This document shows positions 22,168-36,416 of a stretch of DNA of 38,044 nt, one piece after another. Below the pieces are notes generated by a model, which was given only the letters and a program-made list of their open reading frames with translations, was not told the DNA's origin and did not search any database. The translations under genes were made by a program, and so were the position numbers. Source of the stretch: Thioclava dalianensis (lineage in GTDB: Bacteria; Pseudomonadota; Alphaproteobacteria; Rhodobacterales; Rhodobacteraceae); contig NZ_JHEH01000027.1 in the NCBI RefSeq assembly GCF_000715505.1, positions 1-38,044 on the forward strand, given 5' to 3'. The first letter of the stretch is position 1, and every line of letters begins with the position of its first letter.

Positions 22168-22254
22168 TGGTGCGGTCGAGAAGACTCGAACTTCCACGGG
22201 AGTTACCCCACAGCGACCTCAACGCTGCGCGTCTACCAATTCCGCCACGACCGC
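22168..22254 (-). tRNA. tRNA-Leu (anticodon GAG)
   Basis: 87 nucleotides including an encoded CCA. Acceptor strand GCGGTCG pairs with CGACCGC, the discriminator is A, and the D-arm reads GGCGGAATTGGTAGAC. The anticodon stem CAGCG/CGCTG encloses loop TTGAGGT, giving anticodon GAG (complement of 22218-22220). The long class II variable arm TGGGGTAACTCCCG and a T-arm with loop TTCGAGT complete it. It reads CUC and CUU leucine codons. The transcript ends at the terminator at 22132-22163. Confidence 0.97.
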
Positions 22255-24064: not shown

Positions 24065-25738
24065 ATGGCGGATGCAGCCGTTCACGGCGATGGTAAGCAT
24101 GATCCTCGCGGGTTTTTCACCCGTTGGTTCATGTCGACCAATCACAAGGATATCGGGATCCTCTACCTGTTTACCGCAGGTGCGGTCGGTCTGATCTCGG
24201 TCCTTTTCACGGTTTATATGCGCCTTGAGCTGATGGAGCCAGGCGTTCAATACATGTGTCAGGAAGGCGCGCGCTTCATCGCGAACGCCTCTGCGGAATG
24301 TACCCCCGACGGCCATCTTTGGAACGTCATGATCACCTATCATGGCGTGCTGATGATGTTCTTCGTCGTGATTCCGGCGCTGTTTGGCGGCTTTGGCAAC
24401 TACTTCATGCCGCTGCAGATCGGCGCGCCCGACATGGCGTTCCCGCGGATGAACAACCTCAGCTACTGGCTCTATGTTGCAGGCACCTCGCTGGGCGTGG
24501 CCTCGCTGCTCGCACCGGGCGGCAGTGGCGGCATGGGCTCGGGCGTGGGCTGGGTGCTCTACCCGCCGCTATCGGTCAACGAGGGCGGCTACTCGATGGA
24601 TCTCGCGATCTTTGCCGTGCACGTCTCGGGCGCCAGCTCGATCCTCGGCGCGATCAACATGATCACCACCTTCCTCAACATGCGTACACCGGGCATGACG
24701 CTGCACAAGGTGCCGCTCTTTGCCTGGTCGATCTTCGTCACCTCGTGGCTGATCCTGCTGTCGCTTCCGGTGCTGGCAGGCGCGATCACCATGCTGCTGA
24801 TGGACCGCAATTTCGGCACCACCTTCTTTGATCCGGCTGGCGGTGGCGATCCGATCCTCTACCAGCACATCTTGTGGTTCTTCGGCCACCCGGAAGTCTA
24901 CATCATCATTCTGCCGGGCTTTGGCATCATCTCCCACGTCATCGCGACCTTCTCCAGAAAGCCGGTCTTTGGCTACCTGCCGATGGTCTATGCGATGGTG
25001 GCAATCGGGGTGCTGGGCTTTGTCGTGTGGGCGCACCACATGTACACGGTCGGCCTAAGCCTCACACAGCAAAGCTACTTCATGGTCGCCACGATGGTGA
25101 TCGCGGTGCCCACCGGCGTGAAGGTCTTCTCATGGATCGCCACGATGTGGGGCGGCTCGATTGAGCTGAAAACCCCGATGCTCTGGGCGCTCGGCTTCCT
25201 GTTCCTGTTCACCATCGGCGGCGTGACCGGCGTGGTACTCAGCCAGGCTCCGCTGGATCGCGTCTATCACGACACCTATTACGTCGTGGCGCATTTCCAT
25301 TACGTGATGAGCCTTGGTGCGGTCTTTGCAATCTTTGCCGGTGTCTATTTCTGGATCGGCAAGATGTCGGGTCGGCAATATCCCGAATGGGCCGGAAAGC
25401 TGCATTTCTGGATGATGTTCATCGGTTCGAACATGATTTTCTTCCCGCAGCACTTCCTCGGCCGTCAGGGCATGCCGCGCCGCTATATCGACTATCCGGA
25501 GGCCTTCGCGACCTGGAACTATCTCAGCTCGATGGGCGCGTTCCTGTCCTTCGCATCTTTCCTCTTCTTCATCGGGATCGTGTTCTACACCCTGATCTGG
25601 GGCAAGCGCGTGACCGAGAACAACTATTGGAACGAATATGCCGATACGCTCGAATGGACCCTGCCCTGCCCACCGCCGGAGCACACGTTCGAGCAGCTTC
25701 CCAAACGTGAGGACTGGGATCACGCCCACGCGCATTAG
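24065..25738 (+). CDS. ctaD: Cytochrome c oxidase subunit I, aa3-type
   Basis: 557 residues with twelve transmembrane helices. Heme a ligands are H93 and H412, heme a3 ligand H410, and CuB ligands H275, H324 and H325, with the cross-linked Y279 (HPEVY). D-channel residues D123, N130 and N131 and K-channel K353 are present, so both proton paths of a type A oxidase are intact. Numbering is one less than in P. denitrificans. The ATG has GGGAGA upstream. It follows the cytochrome c-550 gene, its likely electron donor; subunits II and III are not in this window. A strong terminator follows. Confidence 0.97.
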
Positions 25739-25763
25739 CGGCGCCCTTGCGTAGCAGCCTTGC

Positions 25764-25792
25764 ATGGCCCCGGAGTGATCCGGGGCCATTTT
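25764..25792 (+). terminator. Rho-independent terminator of ctaD
   Basis: ATGGCCCCGGA (25764-25774) and TCCGGGGCCAT (25779-25789) form an 11-base-pair stem with a GTGA loop, followed by TTTT. It lies 26 bases after the ctaD stop. Confidence 0.9.
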
Positions 25793-25873
25793 CGTATCGC
25801 CTCGGGATCGGTGCGCTTTGCCCAAGCGCCGATCGGGGTTATCATCTGAACCAGTTTCTCAACGAGTAGCCCG

Positions 25874-26401
25874 ATGCCCTATCGCTGGACCCAGAGCGAC
25901 GCCGGAGCGCAATTGCCCCCAGACACCACGGAGCTTCATCTGTGGCCCTATCGCTCACTGCCGCGCAAAGGCTTCGTTATCTTCATCGCGATCACACTGG
26001 TGATGGTGAGCCTGCCGCTATTGGCGCTGCTGGGCACGATTGAGATGTGGTGGGTTTTGGCCTTCATCGCGATGGCCGTGGCGGGCGTGTGGTGGGCGCT
26101 GTCTCATAGCTATCGCACGGGCGAAGTGCTGGAGGTTCTCTCGCTGAGCCCGCGTAGCTTGCGGCTGACGCGGCACGATCCGGGCCGCAAACCCGCGCGC
26201 CATTGGGAGGCCAATCCGCATTGGGTTCGGGTCGCATTGGACCGCTCCGGCGGGCCGGTGCCCGATTACCTGACTTTGACAGGAGGTCCGCGCGAGGTTG
26301 AGCTGGGCGCGTTTCTCACCCCCGAGGAACGCCGCGCGCTTTATGATGAGCTGCGCCGCAATCTCGATCTGGCGCGCGCCCCGATCGGCATGCCGCGCTA
26401 G
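25874..26401 (+). CDS. DUF2244 integral membrane protein
   Basis: 175 residues. Two adjacent transmembrane helices (about 33-54 and 57-76) follow a short N-terminus with the family start LWPYRSLPRKGF. The C-terminal half is soluble and contains PARHWEANPHWVRVAL and GAFLTPEERRALYDELR, both typical of DUF2244. Function is unknown; I recall such genes near cytochrome oxidase genes in alphaproteobacteria, which fits its place behind ctaD. It converges on the DUF3008 gene with only eight bases between the stops. Confidence 0.87.
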   Translation: MPYRWTQSDAGAQLPPDTTELHLWPYRSLPRKGFVIFIAITLVMVSLPLLALLGTIEMWWVLAFIAMAVAGVWWALSHSYRTGEVLEVLSLSPRSLRLTRHDPGRKPARHWEANPHWVRVALDRSGGPVPDYLTLTGGPREVELGAFLTPEERRALYDELRRNLDLARAPIGMPR

Positions 26402-26409
26402 GCCTGAGC

Positions 26410-26592
26410 CTAAGAGCTATTTTCGGGCAAATCAGAGCGCGGAGTCGAGGCCATCTCTTCAAGCTCGGCCTCGCTCATCGTGTCATACATCTCGCGCGAC
26501 GCGCCCTGAAGGTCCGAGACCTTCGCCTCGCCCCGCTTGGCGGAAAGCGCCGCCCCGGCGGCGCGCTGCTGAGATTTGGATTGTGCTTTCAT
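26410..26592 (-). CDS. DUF3008 small protein
   Basis: 60 residues from the ATG at 26592 (MKAQSKSQQRAAGAALSAKRG); an ATG three codons earlier is possible. The pattern KSQQRAAGAALSAKRGE, then SDLQGASREMYDTMSEAELEEMA is the DUF3008 family, short charged proteins of unknown role often found in genomes of soil and water bacteria. No signal peptide or membrane helix. It lies 60 bases behind yqeY on the same strand. Confidence 0.82.
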   Translation of the reverse strand: MKAQSKSQQRAAGAALSAKRGEAKVSDLQGASREMYDTMSEAELEEMASTPRSDLPENSS

Positions 26593-26652
26593 GGGCCCCA
26601 CCTTGGCTGAGTTCCCAAAAGGAACGCCGTGGCGGGGTCGCAGTTCCGGCGC

Positions 26653-27117
26653 TCAGGAGGATAGGCGATCCTTCACCTGCGGGCCAACCCGCGAGAAATC
26701 CATCTGGCCGGTATATTGGCCTTTCAGCTCGCCCATCACTCGGCCCATATCGCGGATCGAATCTGCACCGAGCTTGGCAATCGCGGCATCAATGGCCGCC
26801 GAGACCTCCTCTTCCGAGAGCTGGCGGGGCAGGAAATCCTCGATCACCGAGATCTCCGAGAGCTCCTTTTCAGCGAGTTCCAGCCGCCCGCCCTCTTCGT
26901 AGGCGCGTGCGCTTTCCTGACGCTGCTTGACCATTTTTCCCATGATCGCAAGAACTTCGGGATCGCCGACCGTTTGCTCCCCCTCGCCTTCGGCGCGCAT
27001 CGCGATCTCACGATCTTTGATAGCCGCATTGATCAGCCGCAGCGTCGAAAGCCGCTCCTGATCCTTTTCCTTCATTGCAGTCTTAAGTGCGGCTGAAAGC
27101 CGTTCGCGCATTTCCAT
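26653..27117 (-). CDS. GatB/YqeY domain protein
   Basis: 154 residues, the usual length for stand-alone YqeY proteins. The N-terminus MEMRERLSAALKTAMKEKD and the EDFLPRQLSEEEVSAAI and ADSIRDMGRVMGELK segments match the family, which shares the tRNA-binding domain of the amidotransferase subunit GatB. The function is not settled; a role in tRNA handling is inferred from homology. It is divergent from carA across 168 bases, and a promoter-like pair sits at 27175-27147. Confidence 0.92.
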   Translation of the reverse strand: MEMRERLSAALKTAMKEKDQERLSTLRLINAAIKDREIAMRAEGEGEQTVGDPEVLAIMGKMVKQRQESARAYEEGGRLELAEKELSEISVIEDFLPRQLSEEEVSAAIDAAIAKLGADSIRDMGRVMGELKGQYTGQMDFSRVGPQVKDRLSS

Positions 27118-27146
27118 GATCCACGTCCCCTATGCATCAGGGCGCT

Positions 27147-27175
27147 ACAATAGCCCCATTGCGAAATGCACACAA
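27147..27175 (-). promoter_or_regulatory. Candidate promoter of yqeY
   Basis: On the minus strand TTGTGT (27175-27170) and TATTGT (27152-27147) are 17 bases apart, about 30 bases upstream of the start codon. Confidence 0.5.
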
Positions 27176-27225
27176 CCGAGCCAAGTGTTTGAAAATGTTG
27201 AACAATACAAATATCCTAACGCCCC

Positions 27226-27253
27226 TTGACCCGCCTGCGCCGCGCGCCTAAAT
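27226..27253 (+). promoter_or_regulatory. Candidate promoter of carA
   Basis: TTGACC (27226-27231) and CTAAAT (27248-27253) are separated by 16 bases and lie about 33 bases before the carA ATG. The -35 box is one base from consensus. Confidence 0.55.
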
Positions 27254-27285
27254 TCCGGCGAATTTTGTCTCGGGGGAAACGTGCC

Positions 27286-28452
27286 ATGCCTGTAAGCCAC
27301 ACCGCATCGGAAAAGCCCACCGCGCTCATCGCGCTGGCAGACGGACAACTCTTTTACGGGCGCGGCTTTGGCGCACCGGGCGAAACGGTGGCCGAGCTGG
27401 TCTTCAACACCGCGATGACGGGCTATCAGGAAATCATGACCGACCCGTCCTATGCCGGTCAGGTCGTGACCTTCACCTTCCCGCATATCGGCAATACGGG
27501 CGTGACGCCCGAGGATGACGAGACCGCAGAGCCCGTCGCCGCAGGCATGGTCGTGAAATGGGATCCGACCGAGCCCAGCAACTGGCGCGCGGCCGAGACG
27601 CTCGAGGACTGGCTGGCCAAGCGCGGCCGGATCGGCGTGGGTGGGATCGACACAAGACGCCTGACCCGTGCGATTCGCCAGCAAGGCGCGCCGCATGTGG
27701 CCCTCGCCTACAATCCCGATGGCGTATTCGACATCGAGGCTCTGGTCCGCAAGGCGCGCGAATGGTCCGGCCTTGAAGGGCTCGATCTGGCCAGAGATGT
27801 CACCTGTGCGCAAAGCTATAGCTGGGATCAGATGCGTTGGGCCTGGCCCGAGGGCTACCAGCCCGCGAAGGGCAACGACCTCAAGGTCGTGGCGATCGAT
27901 TTCGGCGCCAAGCGCAACATCCTGCGCTGTCTGGCCTCGGCGGGCTGCGATGTGACGGTTCTGCCGGCCACCGCCACCGCCGAAGACGTGCTCGCGCTCA
28001 AGCCCGACGGGGTGTTCCTGTCCAACGGTCCGGGCGATCCTGCCGCGACCGGTGCCTATGCCGTGCCGATGATCAAGGGCGTGCTGGAGACCGACCTGCC
28101 GGTCTTCGGGATTTGTCTGGGCCACCAGATGCTGGCGCTCGCCCTCGGCGCGCAGACGATCAAGATGAATCACGGCCATCACGGGGCCAACCACCCGGTG
28201 AAGGATCTGACCACCGGTAAGGTCGAAATCACCTCGATGAACCACGGCTTCACCGTGGACAGCCAGACCCTGCCCGATGGCGTGGACGAGACCCATGTCT
28301 CGCTGTTCGACGGCTCGAATTGCGGCATCGCGCTCAAAGACCGCCCGGTGTTTTCGGTCCAATACCACCCCGAAGCCAGCCCCGGCCCGCAAGACAGCTA
28401 CTACCTGTTTGAGCGCTTCGCCGATGCGATCCGCGCCCGCAAAGCGTCCTGA
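27286..28452 (+). CDS. carA: Carbamoyl-phosphate synthase small subunit
   Basis: 388 residues (E. coli 382). It hydrolyses glutamine and passes ammonia to CarB for carbamoyl phosphate, the precursor of pyrimidines and arginine. The N-terminal CPSase domain (about 10-150) is followed by a class I glutamine amidotransferase domain with catalytic C277 (GICLGHQ), H361 and E363 (YHPEASPG). The ATG at 27286 (MPVSHTASEK) is preceded by GGGGGAAACG; a frame extension to 27226 would start inside the promoter-like region. carB is not in the window, so the two subunits are encoded apart, as is common in alphaproteobacteria. Confidence 0.96.
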   Translation: MPVSHTASEKPTALIALADGQLFYGRGFGAPGETVAELVFNTAMTGYQEIMTDPSYAGQVVTFTFPHIGNTGVTPEDDETAEPVAAGMVVKWDPTEPSNWRAAETLEDWLAKRGRIGVGGIDTRRLTRAIRQQGAPHVALAYNPDGVFDIEALVRKAREWSGLEGLDLARDVTCAQSYSWDQMRWAWPEGYQPAKGNDLKVVAIDFGAKRNILRCLASAGCDVTVLPATATAEDVLALKPDGVFLSNGPGDPAATGAYAVPMIKGVLETDLPVFGICLGHQMLALALGAQTIKMNHGHHGANHPVKDLTTGKVEITSMNHGFTVDSQTLPDGVDETHVSLFDGSNCGIALKDRPVFSVQYHPEASPGPQDSYYLFERFADAIRARKAS

Positions 28453-28502
28453 TCGCACCCCCACCCGGGCCGCTTAAGACATTTTTGATCGGAAGGGGCG
28501 GA

Positions 28503-28519
28503 GTTAACGTGTCGTTAAC
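28503..28519. promoter_or_regulatory. CtrA-type binding site (TTAA-N7-TTAA)
   Basis: GTTAACG-TGT-CGTTAAC is a perfect 17-base palindrome whose core TTAA (28504-28507), seven bases, TTAA (28515-28518) equals the CtrA consensus. It sits 53 bases upstream of the glycosyltransferase ATG, in the 119-base gap after carA. CtrA is the response regulator that controls motility, gene transfer agent and surface genes in Rhodobacterales. A chance match is possible but unlikely at this GC content. Confidence 0.6.
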
Positions 28520-28571
28520 CCTGCCCCCCGCATGCTTGACCGTGTGAGCCGTCACCGGGGAGCTGCAAATC

Positions 28572-30620
28572 ATGGCACATGCCACGCCGATCAAACTGGA
28601 GTTTGCCCTCGGCGCGGATGCGGTGGCAGGCCCGTTCTCGGCACAGATGCGCGCGCGTGGCGATCCCAGCGGGTCCGCGCGCGCCACGACAGCCGCTCGC
28701 CCACGCCGCACACCGCTTGGACAGATCCTGCTTGAGATGGGCGCGGTCGAGCCGGGACATTTGCTCAAGGCGCTCGCGCTGCGACGCCGGGAAGATGTAA
28801 GGCTCGGGGATATTCTGCTGACCCATGGCTGGGTACGCGAGCCGGTCCTGATGGCCGCCCTCGCGCGGCAATGGTCGGTCTCGGTCGTGGATCTCATCGC
28901 ACAGCCCCCCGACCCCCGCCTGATCGATGCAATCGGACCGGAGCGCTGCCTGTCAGAGGCGATGGTGCCGTGGTGCACACTGGGCGGCGAGACCGTGATC
29001 GCCACCGCCCGCCCCGAAGATTTCCTAAGGCTCAAGCCCACCCTTGTGGCCCGGTTCGGCCCCTGCCGCATGGTGGTCGCGGACGAACGCAGCATCCACG
29101 AAAGCCTGCTGGCGCGCCGTCAGACGGCCTTGGTGCGCCGCGCCGAGATTAAGGTGGACCCGCGCGAAAGCTGCCGCAACCGCAACGAAGCCCGCGCGGC
29201 GCGCATTGCGGGTGGCTGCGTCGCGGCCCTGCTTGTCGGGCTCTATCTCGCCCCTGATCTGTTGCTCTGGCTGCTTTTTGGTTGGGTGATGCTGACCCTG
29301 ATCGGCACGATGGGGCTGAAGCTGATGGCCTTTACCTCGGAATTTTTAGCCCTGCGCAAGATGCAGGCCCGCCCGCCCGAGGTCCTGCGCGCCCAACATG
29401 GCCCGATGCCACGGCTGCCGATCATCTCGGTCATGGTGCCGCTCTTTCATGAGACCGATATCGCCGCACGCCTTGTGAAACGCCTCGGCACGCTCACCTA
29501 TCCGCGCGAATTGCTCGATATTCTGCTGGTGGTCGAACAAAGCGACCAGATGACCCAAGAGGCGCTTAGCCAAGCAGATCTTCCGCGATGGATGCGGGTC
29601 GTGACGGTTCCCGACGGCCCGATCAAGACCAAGCCCCGCGCGCTCAACTATGCGCTCAGCTTCTGTCGTGGCTCGGTGATCGGCATCTGGGACGCCGAGG
29701 ATGCGCCCGCCGCCGATCAGCTTCACGTGGTGGCGCGCCGCTTTGCGCAGGCCCCTCCGCAGACCGCCTGCCTGCAGGGCATTCTGGATTACTACAACCC
29801 GCGCACAAACTGGCTCGCGCGCTGCTTCACGATCGAATATGCGACGTGGTTTCGGATGTTTCTGCCGGGGCTTGCGCGGCTGGGCTTTGTGGTGCCTCTG
29901 GGCGGCACGACACTATTTTTCCGCCGCGACGCGCTGGAGGATCTTGGCGGCTGGGACGCGCATAATGTCACTGAAGATGCCGATCTGGGCGTACGGCTCG
30001 CCCGGCACGGATACCGCACAGAGCTGATTCCCGCCGTCACCTATGAAGAGGCCAATTGCCGCGCGATCCCGTGGGTCAAGCAACGCTCTCGCTGGCTCAA
30101 GGGCTATGCGATGACATGGGCCGTGCATATGCGCGACCCCGCGCGGCTCTGGCGCGAGCTGGGACCGAAACGCTTTATCGGCGTGCAGATCCTGATCCTC
30201 GGCTCCTTGTCGCAATATATCCTCGCGCCGGTGCTATGGAGCTTCTGGCTCACGCTGTTGGGCATCTGGCACCCGATTGCCTCGCATATCCCCGCCATTG
30301 CCTTCTGGCCGATGATGGCGGTGTTCGTGGGCTCGGAGCTGATCAATATCGCGGTCGGTATGTGGGCGGTCCGCGGGGCTGAGCATCGGCACCTGATCAA
30401 ATGGGTGCCCACGCTTATGGCCTATTTTCCGCTCGGCGCGCTGGCGGGCTGGAAGGCGATCTACGAGGTGATCCTGCGGCCGTTCTACTGGGAAAAAACC
30501 CGCCATGGAATCTATGATATCGCCCCAACCCATATGCATCCCGTGGCGCAAGACGGCCCTTTGCCCAGCCTCACACAGCCGGTCATGCCGCGCCTGAACC
30601 GCGCGCCGCTGATCGATTAA
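28572..30620 (+). CDS. Membrane glycosyltransferase family 2 with N-terminal MshEN-type domain
   Basis: 682 residues. Residues 48-71 and 77-100 are two 24-residue MshEN motifs five apart (PLGQILLEMGAVE.., RLGDILLTHGWVR..); the rest of a T2SSE_N-like domain runs to about 180. MshEN domains bind cyclic di-GMP; motif 2 fits the consensus fully, motif 1 has P48 for Arg and R71 for Gln. Helices at about 213-250 precede a processive GT2 domain with D374-A-E-D377, T468-E-D-A-D472 and Q504xxR-W508, the catalytic set of cellulose-synthase-like enzymes. Several C-terminal helices (535-640) would form an export channel. GGGGAG lies nine bases before the ATG. Polymer unknown; no PilZ domain, no bcs genes nearby. 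Confidence 0.88.
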   Translation: MAHATPIKLEFALGADAVAGPFSAQMRARGDPSGSARATTAARPRRTPLGQILLEMGAVEPGHLLKALALRRREDVRLGDILLTHGWVREPVLMAALARQWSVSVVDLIAQPPDPRLIDAIGPERCLSEAMVPWCTLGGETVIATARPEDFLRLKPTLVARFGPCRMVVADERSIHESLLARRQTALVRRAEIKVDPRESCRNRNEARAARIAGGCVAALLVGLYLAPDLLLWLLFGWVMLTLIGTMGLKLMAFTSEFLALRKMQARPPEVLRAQHGPMPRLPIISVMVPLFHETDIAARLVKRLGTLTYPRELLDILLVVEQSDQMTQEALSQADLPRWMRVVTVPDGPIKTKPRALNYALSFCRGSVIGIWDAEDAPAADQLHVVARRFAQAPPQTACLQGILDYYNPRTNWLARCFTIEYATWFRMFLPGLARLGFVVPLGGTTLFFRRDALEDLGGWDAHNVTEDADLGVRLARHGYRTELIPAVTYEEANCRAIPWVKQRSRWLKGYAMTWAVHMRDPARLWRELGPKRFIGVQILILGSLSQYILAPVLWSFWLTLLGIWHPIASHIPAIAFWPMMAVFVGSELINIAVGMWAVRGAEHRHLIKWVPTLMAYFPLGALAGWKAIYEVILRPFYWEKTRHGIYDIAPTHMHPVAQDGPLPSLTQPVMPRLNRAPLID

Positions 30621-31274
30621 TTACAACGCCTCGGCCCAATGCCCGACCGTGCCGTGCCCATCGGCATCCAGCTTGAGCCGGGTCTCAAAGGCGCGCGAGA
30701 TATGGAGCCGCAACGCCGCAGCCGCAGCTTCACCATCGCCCGCCGCAATCGCATCGACAATCGCCTGATGCTCGGCCAGTGCCGCCTCGACACGGCCTGT
30801 CACCGCAAGCGAGGTCGTCGCCAGCAAGGCCATCGAGCGATGCACGAGATCAAGCTGTTGCACCAGATAGCGGTTATGCGAGGCCAGATGAATCTGGTGA
30901 TGGAAGCGCCGGTTCGAACGGCTCAGCGCTTCGGGCGAGTCGAGTTGGCCGCGATCCTCATCAATCATGGTCTGCAAGACGCGGACCTCCTCGGGGGCGG
31001 CATGTTTCGCAGCAAGCCCCGCGGCCAGCGCCTCCAGCTCTGCGCGCACGACATAAAGCTCGGCCAGTTGGTTATGATCCAGCGAGGCTACGATCAGCGA
31101 ACGGCCATCGCGCGCCAGCATCTGCTGCGTCTCAAGGCGCTGCAACGCCTCGCGCACCGGCGTGCGCGACACCCCGAACCGCTCGGCGAGCTCGGATTCC
31201 ACCAACCGGTTGCCGGGGCGGTAAATCCCCGCATCTATCGCTTCGAGAATGAGTGTGTAGGCGTCTTTTTGCAT
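30621..31274 (-). CDS. GntR-family (FCD subfamily) transcriptional regulator
   Basis: 217 residues from the ATG at 31274 (MQKDAYTLILEAIDAG); the 150-base open extension upstream lacks support. The winged helix-turn-helix is textbook GntR (LVESELAERFGVSRTPVREALQRLE, in parts 24-48), followed by an all-helical FCD domain that normally binds organic acids through Asp/His residues (H174-like in RFHHQIHLASHNRYL). Its stop is directly against the stop of the glycosyltransferase gene with no base between. The regulated genes are not evident; the divergent HAD gene is a candidate. Confidence 0.92.
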   Translation of the reverse strand: MQKDAYTLILEAIDAGIYRPGNRLVESELAERFGVSRTPVREALQRLETQQMLARDGRSLIVASLDHNQLAELYVVRAELEALAAGLAAKHAAPEEVRVLQTMIDEDRGQLDSPEALSRSNRRFHHQIHLASHNRYLVQQLDLVHRSMALLATTSLAVTGRVEAALAEHQAIVDAIAAGDGEAAAAALRLHISRAFETRLKLDADGHGTVGHWAEAL

Positions 31275-31368
31275 ATGTCCTGCCTTGATACCGGGGCAGA
31301 GTAGGCCCGCGCCCGGGCGGAAGACAAGCAGATTGCACCGCAGCGCCGGCCCTCTTAGGGTGCGCCGC

Positions 31369-32019
31369 ATGATGCATAGCGACTTCTCCGACGTGACCGA
31401 CTGGGTCTTCGACCTCGACAACACGCTTTATCCGCCCTCGGCGCGGCTGTTCGATCAGATCGAGCTGCGGATGGTGGATTTCGTGATGCGCACGCTGAGC
31501 GTGGATCGCGCGCAGGCCAATTACCTGCGCGGTCACTACTGGCAGCTTTATGGCACGACGCTTGCCGGGCTGATGCATGAGCACGGCGTCGATCCGGTGC
31601 CGTTTCTCGACGAGGTGCATGAGATCTCGCTCGATCATCTGGAGCATGATGTGGCATTGCGTGCGGGCATCTCGGCCCTGCCCGGCCGCAAGATCGTCTA
31701 TACCAACGGCTCGGCACCTTATGCGAAACGCGTGCTTGAGGCGCGCGGGCTGTCGGGGCTTTTTGAAGACATCTACGGCGTCGAGCACGCCGACTTCCAT
31801 CCCAAGCCGCGCGCGCAGGCCTTCGATACCGTCTTTGCCAAAGCGGGGATCACGCCCGCCCGGGGCGCGATGTTCGAGGATGATCCGCGCAATCTGAGCC
31901 ACCCCCACGCGCTCGGCATGCGCACGATCCATGTCGCCCCGGAGCCCGTGTCAGAGCCGTTCATCCAACACCACACAGACGATCTTGCGGGCTTTCTCGC
32001 GCGGCTGGCTCAGGGCTAG
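31369..32019 (+). CDS. HAD-superfamily phosphatase, SDT1-like pyrimidine 5'-nucleotidase type
   Basis: 216 residues from tandem ATGs at 31369/31372. HAD motif I is D15-L-D17-N-T (WVFDLDNTLYPP), motif II YTNGS, motif III the lysine of HPKPRAQAF, and motif IV FEDDPRN. The FDLDNTLYP start and all-helical cap are typical of the pyrimidine 5'-nucleotidase group (yeast Sdt1-like), which dephosphorylates nucleoside monophosphates or related phosphates. The ribosome site is weak (AGGG). It is divergent from the GntR gene across 94 bases. Confidence 0.88.
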   Translation: MMHSDFSDVTDWVFDLDNTLYPPSARLFDQIELRMVDFVMRTLSVDRAQANYLRGHYWQLYGTTLAGLMHEHGVDPVPFLDEVHEISLDHLEHDVALRAGISALPGRKIVYTNGSAPYAKRVLEARGLSGLFEDIYGVEHADFHPKPRAQAFDTVFAKAGITPARGAMFEDDPRNLSHPHALGMRTIHVAPEPVSEPFIQHHTDDLAGFLARLAQG

Positions 32020-32124
32020 CCCCAAGCATGCGACGTTTTGGCACGCATCAGGGACTCCCCACGAACCGTTACGACCGCTAAATCGGTCCAAGCTATCTGG
32101 GAGATAGGCAAGGGAGACTTGAAG

Positions 32125-32358
32125 ATGACCACGACGACCGCTGAACGCGGCCTTGCGCAACATGCGCACCAGTCCGACCACCACGCCGAGACAGAAGGCG
32201 AGATCTCGGCGCGCACGATGTATCTGCTGGCCATTGTCATCATCGGGATTGCCGCTGGATTGACAGCGACAATGGGGCTTGGCGGATTGATCCTCTGGGC
32301 GGTCTGCGCCGCATGGGGCATGCTCGTGCTGCTGGTGATCATGACCGCAGGCGGCTAA
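32125..32358 (+). CDS. Unknown two-helix membrane protein, 77 aa
   Basis: The ATG at 32125 is preceded by AAGGGAGA eight bases away; the frame is open to 32038 without a better start. Residues 10-26 are rich in His, Gln and acidic residues (AQHAHQSDHHAETEGE). Two transmembrane helices follow (about 32-50 and 54-75) separated by a glycine turn, with a very short C-terminal tail. I do not recognise a family; it does not match the aa3 oxidase subunit IV pattern I considered. A rho-independent terminator ends the unit 26 bases after the stop, so it is expressed on its own or with the HAD gene. Confidence 0.7.
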   Translation: MTTTTAERGLAQHAHQSDHHAETEGEISARTMYLLAIVIIGIAAGLTATMGLGGLILWAVCAAWGMLVLLVIMTAGG

Positions 32359-32383
32359 CTCTGCGCAATTTCGCACAGGCGAG

Positions 32384-32405
32384 AGGGGCAAGCTGGCCCC
32401 TTTTT
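32384..32405 (+). terminator. Rho-independent terminator
   Basis: AGGGGC (32384-32389) and GCCCCT (32396-32401) pair around AAGCTG, followed by a T-run to 32405. It ends the 77-aa gene and insulates the hydroxylase gene downstream. Confidence 0.88.
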
Positions 32406-32522
32406 GGTCGTATCAGCTGCAAGCTGCCTGTGCGCAGATGTCGCCGGGTTGCGGGGGCCGCTCGCGATTGCACTGGCCGCGCGAAACGCGCATTGTGTCG
32501 GGGTATTTCGAAAGGCCTCCTC

Positions 32523-33728
32523 ATGTCGCAGCACATCCAGCAAACCGATATCCTGATCTCGGGCGGCGGCGTCGCCGGATTGACCGCAGCGGCGGCCTTT
32601 GGCACGGCGGGCTTCACCACGATCTGCGTCGATCCGAACCCGCCCGTCACGACCGAGTCGGATGCCGGGGCCGATATGCGCAGCACGGCTTTCTTGCAGC
32701 CCGCACGCAAGGTGCTTGAGGCCGCAGGCCTATGGGCGCGCCTTGCGCCGCATGCCGCGCCCTTGCAGATCATGCGGATTGTCGATGCAGGCGGCGAGAC
32801 CTCCACAGCGCGACTGACGCGCGACTTTAACGCCGCCGAGCTGTCGCAGGAGCCGTTCGGCTGGAACTTCCCCAACTGGCTCTTGCGCCGCGAGATGGTC
32901 GCACGTCTGGCCGAAATCCCGCAGGTCGATTTCCGCCCCGGCATCGCGACCACGGCCCTCGCCACGCGCGAGAGCGGCGCCGAGGTCACGCTGAGCGATG
33001 GCAGTCATGTGCACGCCCGGCTGGTGATCGCCGCCGACGGTCGCAACTCTGATATCCGCGAGGCCTCTGGGCTGAGCGTCTCGCCCACCCATTACGGTCA
33101 AAAGGCGCTGGCCTTCGCGGTCACCCATCCGATCCCGCATCAGAATGTCTCGACCGAGATCCACCGCTCGGGTGGCCCCTTCACCCTCGTGCCGCTGCCT
33201 GATCGCGACGGGATGCCCTCCTCTGCGGTGGTCTGGATGGAGCGCGGCGCCGAGGCCGAACGTCTCGCAGCCCTGCCCGTGGACGAATTCGAGGCCGCGA
33301 TGCTGGAGCGCTCCACCGGCCTTCTCGGGCCGCTCAAGCTAGAGACCCGCCGCGCGCTCTGGCCGATGATGACGCAGATCGCCAATCGGTTTTCGGCCCA
33401 GCGCGTGGCGCTGATCGCAGAGGCCGCCCATGTCATCCCGCCCATCGGGGCGCAGGGGCTCAACATGAGCCTCGCCGATCTGGCCTGCCTGCTTGAGCTA
33501 TGCGACCGCGACCCTGCGCATCTGGGCGAGCGCGCGATGCTTGACACCTATCACCGCCGCCGCTGGCCCGAGGTGAAGGCCCGCGAGATCGGGATCGACA
33601 TGCTCAACCGGATCTCGATGGTGGAAGCCCGTCCGCTGCGCGATCTGCGCGCGGGCGTGTTGGGCGCGCTTTACTCGCTGGGTCGGGTGCGCAAAGGGCT
33701 GATGCGCGCAGGGCTGGGCGTGAATTAA
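32523..33728 (+). CDS. UbiH/UbiF-family FAD-dependent hydroxylase
   Basis: 401 residues from ATG 32523 (MSQHIQQTDILISGGG); the longer open frame has no good start. The FAD-binding GGGVAG is at 14-19, the second motif AADGRNSDIRE near 175, and the third motif IAEAAHVIPPIGAQGLN near 300, with Glu where many family members have GD. Such enzymes add hydroxyl groups to the ubiquinone ring; which position cannot be read here, since alphaproteobacteria use UbiH, UbiF or UbiL-type enzymes in varying sets. It is convergent with the MATE gene. Confidence 0.87.
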   Translation: MSQHIQQTDILISGGGVAGLTAAAAFGTAGFTTICVDPNPPVTTESDAGADMRSTAFLQPARKVLEAAGLWARLAPHAAPLQIMRIVDAGGETSTARLTRDFNAAELSQEPFGWNFPNWLLRREMVARLAEIPQVDFRPGIATTALATRESGAEVTLSDGSHVHARLVIAADGRNSDIREASGLSVSPTHYGQKALAFAVTHPIPHQNVSTEIHRSGGPFTLVPLPDRDGMPSSAVVWMERGAEAERLAALPVDEFEAAMLERSTGLLGPLKLETRRALWPMMTQIANRFSAQRVALIAEAAHVIPPIGAQGLNMSLADLACLLELCDRDPAHLGERAMLDTYHRRRWPEVKAREIGIDMLNRISMVEARPLRDLRAGVLGALYSLGRVRKGLMRAGLGVN

Positions 33729-33742
33729 CACGGCCCGCCCGC

Positions 33743-35122
33743 TTACATCGGCGCCAGCCACGGCCCGCGCCAGAAGCGGGTCATCATCAGCGCGCCTGCG
33801 CAGGCCAGCCCGATCACCAGACCAAACCAGAGCCCCACCCCGCCAAAACCCAGCGGGAAGGCCAGAACATAGCTCATCGGAATGCCAATCAGCCAATAGC
33901 TGAGCACTGCCATCCACATCGGCACGCGGGTATCTTGCACCCCGCGCAAAAGCCCCAACGCCATCACCTGCATCAGATCGAACAGCTGAAACAGCGCCGC
34001 GACCATCAGGAAGCGGGCGGCAAAGACCACGATCTGCGGGGTCGCCGGGTTATCGGCATCCAGAAACAGCTTGGAGAGCGGCGCACCGAAGGCAAAGAAG
34101 CCCGCCATCGCCAGCAGCCCCACGCCCAGCGACAGGCTCACCACCACAAGGGCCCCGTCGCGCAGACGCCGCGAATCGCGCGCACCATGCGCCCGACCGG
34201 CACGCACCGTCGCCACGTTCGACAGGCCCACATGGATCATGAAAACCACCGTGGTGATTTCGAGCGCGATCCCATGGGCGGCCAGTTCTATCGTGCCGAC
34301 CCAGCCCATCATCAGCGCCGAGGCCTGAAACATCGAGCCCTCCGCCACCGATGTCAGCCCGACCGGCACGCCCATCCGCACGACGCTCCAAAGGGTCTCC
34401 CAATCGGGCCGCCAGAACCGCGAGAACAGCGCAATATGGCGCAGCCCCGGCGCGCGCGCGGCATAGATCGCCTGCGCCACAAGGCTCAGGCAGGTGACGC
34501 TCAGCGAGGCAATCGCAGCCCCTCGCACGCCCATCTCGGGCGCGCCCAGATTGCCGAAGATCAGCAGCCAGTTGATCGCCGCGTTCAACACGACCGCGCC
34601 CAGCGTGATCCACAACAGCACCTGCGTGCGCTCATGTGCCGAAAGATAGGAACGCAGCACCATCATCGACAGCGCAGGCGCCAAGGCAAAGCCCAGCACG
34701 CGCAGATACTCTTGCGCCAAAGCCGCGATTTCGGGCGTCTGGCCCAGCCAGCCCAGCACCGTTGCGGAATGCCATGTCAGCGGCAGCACGGCTACGCCAT
34801 AGAGCACCGAAACCCAGATCCCCATGCGCGTGTCGCGCCGCGCCTGCACCTCGTCGCCCGCCCCAAGACTGGCCGAGACCCGCCCCATGACCGCCAGCGC
34901 CACGCCATTGCCCAGCATGAACAGCGAGAAGAAATAGGACGATCCCAGAACGAGCGCGGCGAGCGCCTCCACCCCGTACCAGCCGACCATCACCGTGTCG
35001 GTGACGTTGAGCAGCATCTGGGCGAGATTGGAACCGATCAGCGGCAAGCCCAAAACACAGATCGCCCGCATATGGCGGGCGATCGGCATGGGCGCCGTTT
35101 GGGATGGGGCGAGATCGGTCAT
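33743..35122 (-). CDS. MATE-family multidrug/sodium antiporter (NorM-like)
   Basis: 459 residues with twelve predicted transmembrane helices in two MatE repeats (about 22-185 and 245-410). The first repeat contains LPLIGSNLAQMLLNVTDTVMVGWYG, in parts diagnostic: LNVTDTVMVG is the MATE signature. NorM-type proteins export cationic drugs and dyes in exchange for Na+ or H+. The ATG at 35122 lies 39 bases from the neighbouring cytochrome b stop, on the same strand; they may share a transcript. Substrate unknown. Confidence 0.92.
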   Translation of the reverse strand: MTDLAPSQTAPMPIARHMRAICVLGLPLIGSNLAQMLLNVTDTVMVGWYGVEALAALVLGSSYFFSLFMLGNGVALAVMGRVSASLGAGDEVQARRDTRMGIWVSVLYGVAVLPLTWHSATVLGWLGQTPEIAALAQEYLRVLGFALAPALSMMVLRSYLSAHERTQVLLWITLGAVVLNAAINWLLIFGNLGAPEMGVRGAAIASLSVTCLSLVAQAIYAARAPGLRHIALFSRFWRPDWETLWSVVRMGVPVGLTSVAEGSMFQASALMMGWVGTIELAAHGIALEITTVVFMIHVGLSNVATVRAGRAHGARDSRRLRDGALVVVSLSLGVGLLAMAGFFAFGAPLSKLFLDADNPATPQIVVFAARFLMVAALFQLFDLMQVMALGLLRGVQDTRVPMWMAVLSYWLIGIPMSYVLAFPLGFGGVGLWFGLVIGLACAGALMMTRFWRGPWLAPM

Positions 35123-35161
35123 GCGGGATCGCTAGCCCCGCAGGTTCAACCGGTCAAGCGC

Positions 35162-35785
35162 TCAATCCTCTTTGACGATCTTCTTGCCGGTGATCATCGG
35201 CTTGATAAGATTTTCACGCTTCCAGAACCGGTAATACAGAACCGCCGCGATATGCAGGCAGACCACGATCAGCAGCACGCTGGAGATCGTCTCATGCACA
35301 TTGGGCGACAGGCTTTGTGAGATGCTGTCGGGCACATATTGCGCCCAAGGACCGACATTGATGAAATCCTGCGGATCCGATGTCAGCCCGGTGAGAACCT
35401 GCAAAATCAAAAGCCCGAGCATCGCAAAGACGGACCATGCGCCCAGCGGGTTATGGCCCGGCCAATGCGAGGCATTGCGCGTGGGCAGATGGCGCAGGTA
35501 ACGCAGGGTGGCGTTCGGCCCATAGATGAAGCTCGTGAACCGTGCGGGGCGCGGCCCGATAAGCCCCCAGATCAGGCGGATCACCACAAGGCCCCCGATC
35601 GTGTAGCCAAAATAGAAATGCCAAGTCATCTGGTTCGGGCCCCATTCCCCCAAGCCCCAGGCACCGGCAAACGCCAGCACCAAGAGCCAGTGGAACGACC
35701 GCACAACCGGATCCCAGACCTTCACGACACGAGCTTTGGAAGAGCTGTCCGCCTGCATCGAGTTACTTCGCGCGGAATTCGTCAT
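35162..35785 (-). CDS. Membrane cytochrome b (b561 / Ni-Fe hydrogenase-type cytochrome b)
   Basis: 207 residues with four to five transmembrane helices. Likely heme ligands are H32 (RSFHWLLV), H56 (WHFYFGY), H164 (NVHETISS) and H178 (VCLHIAAV). The start VWDPVVRSFHWLLVL is the family hallmark. The ATG at 35785 overlaps the cytochrome c' gene by 23 bases; an alternative ATG at 35758 avoids the overlap and gives a more typical N-terminus, and neither has a strong ribosome site. With cytochrome c' it probably forms a membrane-to-periplasm electron route; no hydrogenase genes are near. Confidence 0.88.
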   Translation of the reverse strand: MTNSARSNSMQADSSSKARVVKVWDPVVRSFHWLLVLAFAGAWGLGEWGPNQMTWHFYFGYTIGGLVVIRLIWGLIGPRPARFTSFIYGPNATLRYLRHLPTRNASHWPGHNPLGAWSVFAMLGLLILQVLTGLTSDPQDFINVGPWAQYVPDSISQSLSPNVHETISSVLLIVVCLHIAAVLYYRFWKRENLIKPMITGKKIVKED

Positions 35786-36206
35786 GGCAGCTCTTGCATG
35801 CGCCGCCGACCTGACCGAGCGCCGGGCCGAGCGTGTCCTTGCTGGCCGCCGCTGCCGGAAGCGCTGCCACCGCCTCTTTCAACGCGGCATATTTCGCGGT
35901 GAAATCGCTCGGTTTTTCCCAGATCCCGGGCTTGGCACGGGTGTTGCTCATCGTGTCGGTCGAAGTGCCCTTCACGAAGAGCGGCGTGATATCGACATTG
36001 GTCAGCGCCACCATGTTATTGGCCGCAACGCCTGCTGTGTCGGCGTTGAACTCCGTCTTGCCCTGAGCCATAGGCGCGAGCACGGACATCTGGGCGCTGA
36101 GCAGATGGAAAAAGCCCTGACGCGCCTTCACGGCATCGTCGGGCGACTGGGCTGCAACCATTCCAGCAGGCAGCGTCAGGCAAAGGGCGAGAAGGGTCTT
36201 GCGCAT
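35763..36206 (-). CDS. Cytochrome c' (class II cytochrome c)
   Basis: 147 residues. The signal peptide MRKTLLALCLTLPAGMVAA is cleaved before Q20. A four-helix-bundle body ends with the C-terminal heme site C137-KS-C140-H141, the position typical of cytochrome c'. Other marks are ARQGFFHLLSAQM and KPGIWEKPSDF. The ATG at 36206 has GGGAGA eight bases upstream; the open frame continues to 36272 without support. Cytochromes c' bind NO and may protect against nitrosative stress; pairing with a cytochrome b suggests an electron-transfer role. Operon with the downstream cytochrome b gene. Confidence 0.92.
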   Translation of the reverse strand: MRKTLLALCLTLPAGMVAAQSPDDAVKARQGFFHLLSAQMSVLAPMAQGKTEFNADTAGVAANNMVALTNVDITPLFVKGTSTDTMSNTRAKPGIWEKPSDFTAKYAALKEAVAALPAAAASKDTLGPALGQVGGACKSCHDEFRAK

Positions 36207-36234
36207 CGTGATCTCCCAATCGTTGAAAATTGTT

Positions 36235-36248
36235 ACGATCTCGATCGT
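36235..36248. promoter_or_regulatory. Inverted repeat upstream of cytochrome c' gene
   Basis: ACGATC (36235-36240), TC, GATCGT (36243-36248) is a six-base inverted repeat, flanked by GTTAC-like ends. It lies 28 bases upstream of the cytochrome c' start and may be an operator; the regulator is unknown. Confidence 0.35.
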
Positions 36249-36416
36249 TACACGAAGCGGAGGATAGCCCAAGCCCTAATCGCTGTGCGGCCAGACACAT
36301 TTGGTCTGCCAAGCTGCGGAACAGGCACTATTTCTTGCGCGACTTTCCGCGCACACGCAAGATTTCTACGACGGAACCGCCCGACATCGCCGTTTAAGGC
36401 CCTTTGGCAAACACGC

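Follow-up and report, generated by a model that had tools for sequence, protein, structure and literature searches.

An N-terminal MshEN domain on a carA-linked glycosyltransferase of Thioclava dalianensis: a putative c-di-GMP-controlled polysaccharide synthase whose receptor varies among relatives

The DNA analyzed here, a stretch of 38,044 nucleotides from Thioclava dalianensis (contig NZ_JHEH01000027.1, positions 1 to 38,044; hereafter the window), encodes at 28572-30620 a protein that joins an N-terminal MshEN domain to a family 2 glycosyltransferase (GT2) of the membrane synthase type. We consider this protein likely to be a c-di-GMP-activated membrane polysaccharide synthase. In the mechanism we propose, binding of c-di-GMP would alter the packing of the MshEN domain against the catalytic domain, and at raised c-di-GMP this change would switch on polymerization and extrusion of a surface polysaccharide. 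The computed support consists of the domains, the MshEN fold in the predicted model, the conserved catalytic residues and locus, and the GGDEF proteins encoded in the genome. From these we infer c-di-GMP binding, processivity and the product. The sign of the regulation, activation, would follow by analogy with NfrB, where it is taken from mutants, and with BcsA, which c-di-GMP activates. A preliminary description, drawn from the letters of the DNA, had reported paired MshEN motifs ahead of a GT2 catalytic set and had read the enzyme as making and exporting a surface polysaccharide in response to c-di-GMP. What it observed is confirmed, and its interpretation is partly supported. The gene is laid out as follows.

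28572..30620, + strand: whole gene, N-terminal MshEN plus GT2 membrane synthase, 682 residues (ORF, domain searches, model)
28572..28712, + strand: variable tail, residues 1-47 (pLDDT below 50 for nearly all of 1-41)
28713..28784, + strand: MshEN motif 1, residues 48-71, with Pro48 and Arg71 where the consensus has Arg and Gln
28785..28799, + strand: spacer RREDV, residues 72-76, five residues
28800..28871, + strand: MshEN motif 2, residues 77-100, with 6 of 6 consensus key residues
28875..29102, + strand: MshEN C-terminal subdomain (PF05157), residues 102-177 (Pfam and structure match)
29187..29369, + strand: two predicted helices, residues 206-226 and 228-266, N-terminal of the GT domain (membrane placement inferred from sequence)
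29424..30101, + strand: GT2 catalytic domain, residues 285-510 (GT2 models and structure match)
29691..29702, + strand: DAED, residues 374-377 (D374 and D377 identical throughout an alignment of 61 sequences that includes the window protein)
29970..29984, + strand: TEDAD, residues 467-471 (alignment and motif search)
30081..30095, + strand: QRSRW (QxxRW), residues 504-508 (alignment and motif search)
30165..30476, + strand: C-terminal hydrophobic helices, residues 532-635 (model; membrane placement inferred from sequence)

The reading frame opens with ATG and runs for 682 codons. Downstream of the motif pair, Pfam MshEN scored 24.4 bits over residues 102-177, 1.3 bits above its cut-off of 23.1, so the T2SSE_N-like region that had been described there is recovered, barely above threshold; at E 0.001 this protein is the sole PF05157 match in its own genome. 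The two helices noted earlier were likewise predicted ahead of the GT domain. By sequence, the nearest solved structures for the front part are PilF (E 3.6e-9), MshE and PilB, and those for the remaining part are an archaeal mannosyltransferase (6yv7) and E. coli cellulose synthase. The preliminary assignment of the catalytic set held for D374/D377 and for QxxRW at 504-508; TEDAD lies at 467-471 and not, as had been given, at 468-472.

Motif 1 reads PLGQILLEMGAVEPGHLLKALALR and motif 2 reads RLGDILLTHGWVREPVLMAALARQ. The NCBIfam model NF053729, which describes an MshE-related c-di-GMP-binding motif, has a cut-off of 38 bits; over residues 48-100 it scored 44.8 bits (E 7.7e-12), so that this profile, like Pfam MshEN, passed its cut-off. 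The published relaxed form of the motif pair, searched with a spacer of 3-7 residues allowed, was located at the same residues. When the protein was shuffled 20,000 times, one relaxed motif turned up in 81 shuffles and a pair in none. The two 24-residue motifs set five residues apart stand as first described. The hydrophobic residues and glycines of the motifs are present (Leu49, Gly50, Leu64, Leu68, Leu78, Gly79, Leu93 and Leu97). Taken together, NF053729, the structure matches and the model agree on an MshEN-type receptor joined to a GT2 synthase-type enzyme.

Motif 2 is complete, whereas motif 1, with its Pro and Arg, misses the strict motif and fits the published relaxed one, which allows R/K/P/N at position 1 and Q/N/K/R/Y/W/S/T at position 24 and calls for case-by-case checking (PMC5013675). 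In the mutational results of that paper, changes to Arg9, Asp12 or Gln32 shifted affinity by at most fivefold, the drop exceeded tenfold when a conserved hydrophobic residue was changed, and a change of Gly11 abolished binding; its discussion also names Arg9 and Gln32 as important. E. coli NfrB carries the same letters as the window protein in motif 1, with Pro489 as its first and Arg512 as its last residue, and its MshEN part binds c-di-GMP with a Kd of 1.0 ± 0.35 μM (PMC8669469). Among 63 homologous rows with both motif cores (window included), Pro is the commonest residue at position 1 of motif 1 (37, against 12 for Arg), and Arg is the second commonest at position 24 (28, against 33 for Gln). 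The comparison of homologues proposed earlier thus shows both letters to be frequent. They are shared with a c-di-GMP binder as well, and thus represent a common family state that is compatible with binding. Judged by sequence comparison, the compatibility of Pro48 and Arg71 with c-di-GMP binding is largely answered. The two substitutions that had been pointed out are there, and the accompanying worry that affinity might be altered or lost is weakened by the relaxed motif, by the homologues and by NfrB.

An AlphaFold model, built without ligand on a 50-sequence alignment that included the window protein, had a mean pLDDT of 87.5 and a pTM of 0.86, with block means of 93-98 across residues 51-200. 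Foldseek matched it to MshE in complex with c-di-GMP (5htl_B, 139 residues; rank 49, E 2.2e-7, TM by target 0.84, rmsd 2.3 Å across 139 alignment columns), so in the predicted structure the motifs do form an MshEN fold, the structural point on which the earlier reading had been made to depend. The top matches were hyaluronan synthase (8smp) and BcsA cellulose synthase with c-di-GMP (4p00), both at about 1e-13, although TM by query was modest (0.36 and 0.42) and rmsd large. Across the first ∼20 synthase structures TM by query was 0.36-0.44 and rmsd 5-33 Å, and the match of the modeled synthase part is thus one of fold in general.

The features of processive GT2 enzymes (D...D, TED and QxxRW together with membrane helices) are all found in the protein, the membrane placement being read from sequence. 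It is possible, if unlikely, that the enzyme is instead non-processive and transfers a single sugar, or a few, onto a lipid or some other acceptor. Such motifs by themselves are no proof of processivity, 6yv7 is among the nearest matches by both sequence and fold, and neither a polysaccharide exporter among the scanned flanking ORFs nor BcsB in the genome was found. Against this, DAED, TEDAD and QxxRW are all present and invariant in the 61 aligned sequences (window included), hyaluronan synthase and BcsA lead the fold matches, and a distant full-length relative at locus L118 adjoins a BcsB-like gene and lies near a glycoside hydrolase.

The synthase is widespread in its family. The 295 genomes sampled from the window's family include its own genome, and a match at E 1e-50 or better turned up in 266 of them. 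Relatives that carry a name belong to Rhodobacter, Paracoccus, Thioclava and Roseovarius, among others; in a wider sample of the phylum, 88 of 398 genomes held a match at E 1e-30 or better. NF053729 matched in 172 of the 295 genomes at E 0.001 and above its cut-off in 123, a count that takes motif matches anywhere in the genome. Among the first 11 genomes listed in that count, eight have the motif inside the synthase match, two (G602 and G708) hold a synthase match whose place is unlisted, and one (G562) is without a synthase match. Two neighbors of the gene are conserved.

27226..28452, + strand: carA, carbamoyl-phosphate synthase small chain, conserved upstream neighbor (Pfam scan)
30621..31424, - strand: FCD-type GntR regulator, conserved downstream neighbor (Pfam scan)

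For the comparison of loci, 80 of the 85 relatives found were kept; 74 of these 80 loci had 2 kb of upstream and 73 had 1.5 kb of downstream sequence, and L076, whose contig starts within the gene, was placed among those without both cores. A carA gene on the same strand lies at most 1.5 kb upstream in 41 of 42 loci with both motif cores and 28 of 32 without, and a GntR gene on the opposite strand follows downstream in 37 of 41 and 23 of 32, respectively. Since the flanks are shared, this is the same gene in the same place whether the receptor is present or not. A Pfam scan of the 10 ORFs around the gene (24,065-36,272) gave COX1, DUF2244, YqeY, CarA, GntR, HAD, an FAD enzyme, a MatE transporter, cytochrome b561 and cytochrome c', and one small flanking ORF had no Pfam match; YqeY, carA, GntR and HAD are the nearest neighbors. 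No known polysaccharide exporter was found among these flanking ORFs, and BcsB had no match in the genome. The genome does contain five GGDEF matches, one PilZ match and five Wza-type export matches, the last all on other contigs. A scan for promoters and terminators found none, where 0.9 and 1.8 were expected by chance. We also considered whether the orthologue in R. capsulatus might be one of the known capsule genes for the GTA receptor and found no link in the text of PMC10218006, which gives rcc01081-01086 as a capsule cluster, rcc01932 as responsible for chain initiation and rcc01958-60 as wzc/wzb/wza.

While the enzyme and its locus are retained, the receptor in many relatives is not. 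Coded on stop-to-stop frames, on which L078 has both motifs, 133 rows (window included) divided into 63 with both cores, 12 with motif 2 alone, 7 with motif 1 alone, 46 degenerate and 5 in which the receptor was absent, so that about half of the relatives are without an intact receptor. Three rows (L031, L060 and L068) reach a contig edge, and a recount on the tree set aside L031, L046, L060 and L074. In a quickly built tree of 132 GT-part rows (SH-aLRT support only, several long branches), the "both cores" label changed 15 times overall and 12 times among the 105 rows on the window's side, where well-supported branches force at least four of the changes. Parsimony is blind to gain versus loss, but because remnants persist and distant relatives have full motifs, the simpler reading of these sequences is that the receptor was repeatedly eroded or deleted. 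Six degenerate rows (L061, L062, L063, L066, L069 and L071, four of them named Silicimonas) keep the enzyme in frames of 583-602 codons stop to stop and show no recognizable c-di-GMP motif pair; in L061 a trace of the C-terminal subdomain scored 18.8 bits, below the Pfam cut-off of 23.1. Loss of c-di-GMP signaling as the cause of receptor loss was rejected, given GGDEF proteins in 49 of 49 genomes searched, receptor-less ones included. Since in many relatives the enzyme persists with a broken or missing receptor despite these GGDEF proteins, even within the window's own clade (L022 and L024), c-di-GMP control is dispensable for it.

This pattern bears on whether the window's own N-domain still works. 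It might be a relic that is folded and non-binding, leaving the synthase constitutive or under transcriptional control, and the absence of Arg and Gln from motif 1 and the eroded or deleted receptors of many same-locus relatives, L022 and L024 among them, speak for this. We think it quite improbable, however. The key positions of motif 2 are identical in all 22 rows picked by hand around the window within its clade, and over these rows the 12 key motif positions had an identity of 0.955, compared with 0.833 for the rest of 48-100 and 0.785 for 102-180 (permutation p 0.018), with Leu68 as a weak key position (conservation 0.59). L022 and L024 fall inside the clade on the tree, have damaged motifs and stand outside the 22-row count; adding them (24 rows) gave 0.920 versus 0.807, 0.766 for 102-180 and p 0.029. 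Such conservation is not seen in nine rows on the Roseovarius side, where key positions had 0.51 and the rest 0.59, with 0.83 for the GT domain. NfrB, moreover, binds despite the same two changes, and a working c-di-GMP receptor remains the reading that we favor for the window protein. That the domain has its main role in assembly or in binding a partner, or responds to a different cyclic dinucleotide, is very unlikely: the subdomain trace in L061 without a motif pair and the weak binding of cGAMP that PMC5013675 also reports for V. cholerae MshEN would fit, whereas motif 2 has RLG...Q, the combination that paper describes for c-di-GMP, and GGDEF proteins occur in every genome searched.

Fusions of MshEN with glycosyltransferases are already known, C-terminal in NfrB and N-terminal in Sfz2 stalk proteins, and PMC5013675 mentions fusion of the domain with glycosyltransferase domains. 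NfrB is the c-di-GMP-activated glycosyltransferase of the phage N4 receptor system, in which c-di-GMP-site mutants lower N4 plating (PMC8669469). It resembles the window protein in being a GT2 and MshEN fusion, in the Pro and Arg of motif 1, and in DxD, TED and QxxRW. It differs in having the GT part N-terminal and MshEN C-terminal, the opposite end from the window protein, as the preliminary description had it. In addition, the GT parts are 22% identical, the NfrB spacer has four residues against five here, NfrB belongs to its own nfrA/ybcH operon, and the NfrB model NF008411 (cut-off 1170) gives the window protein 42.9 bits, best over the MshEN part.

Closer in domain order, comparing by description, are the Sfz2/XagB-like proteins of the twisted-stalk sfz cluster and the Xanthomonas xag operon, with an N-terminal MshEN (T2SSE_N) domain followed by GT2. 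Sfz2 has an N-terminal EpsE-like T2SS domain (IPR007831), then a GT2 domain with TED and QxxRW; PMC8250860 discusses a translocation role for it and looked for other c-di-GMP motifs (RxxD, RxxxR), and the term MshEN is absent from its main text. Genes of the sfz type have been likened to XagB (PMC4643136), itself described in PMC3609779. These genes sit in multi-gene clusters, whereas partners of this kind do not adjoin the window gene, judging from its Pfam neighbors and the lack of a genomic BcsB match. The cluster at L118 (BcsB-like, GT2 synthase, no match, GH113, no match, CotH) resembles the sfz cluster as published in PMC8250860. Its synthase gene (L118:6953-9013, - strand) encodes two complete MshEN motif pairs in tandem, at residues 11-63 and 68-120 and four residues apart, and the protein scores 112.6 bits in two stretches on NF053729. 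If the tandem pair holds for Sfz2, a putative twisted-stalk synthase would carry a double c-di-GMP receptor. Full-length relatives are present in a group of small genomes (f38) that, set against the sfz literature, is probably Mariprofundus-like.

BcsA, PgaC and hyaluronan synthase share the GT2 fold, membrane helices and QxxRW with the window protein. The BcsA model TIGR03030 gives it 40.0 of 699.1 bits, and the PgaC equivalog cut-off is likewise far above its score. The c-di-GMP receptor of BcsA is a PilZ domain, for which no match was found in the window protein. The N-domains of MshE, PilB and PilF have the MshEN fold and motif pair in common with it but are fused to ATPases rather than to a GT.

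We suggest, tentatively, that in Rhodobacteraceae/Paracoccaceae the carA-linked synthase could make a surface polysaccharide (adhesin) as a core enzyme of the group and might be the one still missing for the polar adhesins of Rhodobacterales, an order without hfs and upp genes, and that its c-di-GMP switch was discarded repeatedly, leaving the enzyme always on or otherwise controlled. In the open-licence literature we found no published account of the carA-linked N-terminal-MshEN form family-wide and of repeated loss of the switch. If the proposal is true, one conserved enzyme ties c-di-GMP directly to surface polysaccharide in a large bacterial group, and the intact, eroded and deleted receptors at one locus form a natural series on MshEN control of a synthase.

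Several minor observations accompany these results. In the frames at L102 (807 codons) and L104 (757 codons), a break at about residue 260-275 divides the synthase match, which suggests that extra sequence has been inserted after the membrane helices and ahead of the GT domain. A relative on a Hyphomicrobiales plasmid (L084:5983-7854, + strand) scores above the motif cut-off; downstream of it come ORFs for a protein unmatched in Pfam, for a response regulator and for a histidine kinase. In the window, a 439-codon ORF runs antisense to carA (27145-28464, - strand), and in 42 of 71 loci a family of minus-strand ORFs recurs upstream, one or two ORFs away from the synthase gene; the recurring ORF is probably the same high-GC shadow frame. 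Lastly, a tRNA-Leu (gag) gene lies at 22168-22254 on the minus strand.
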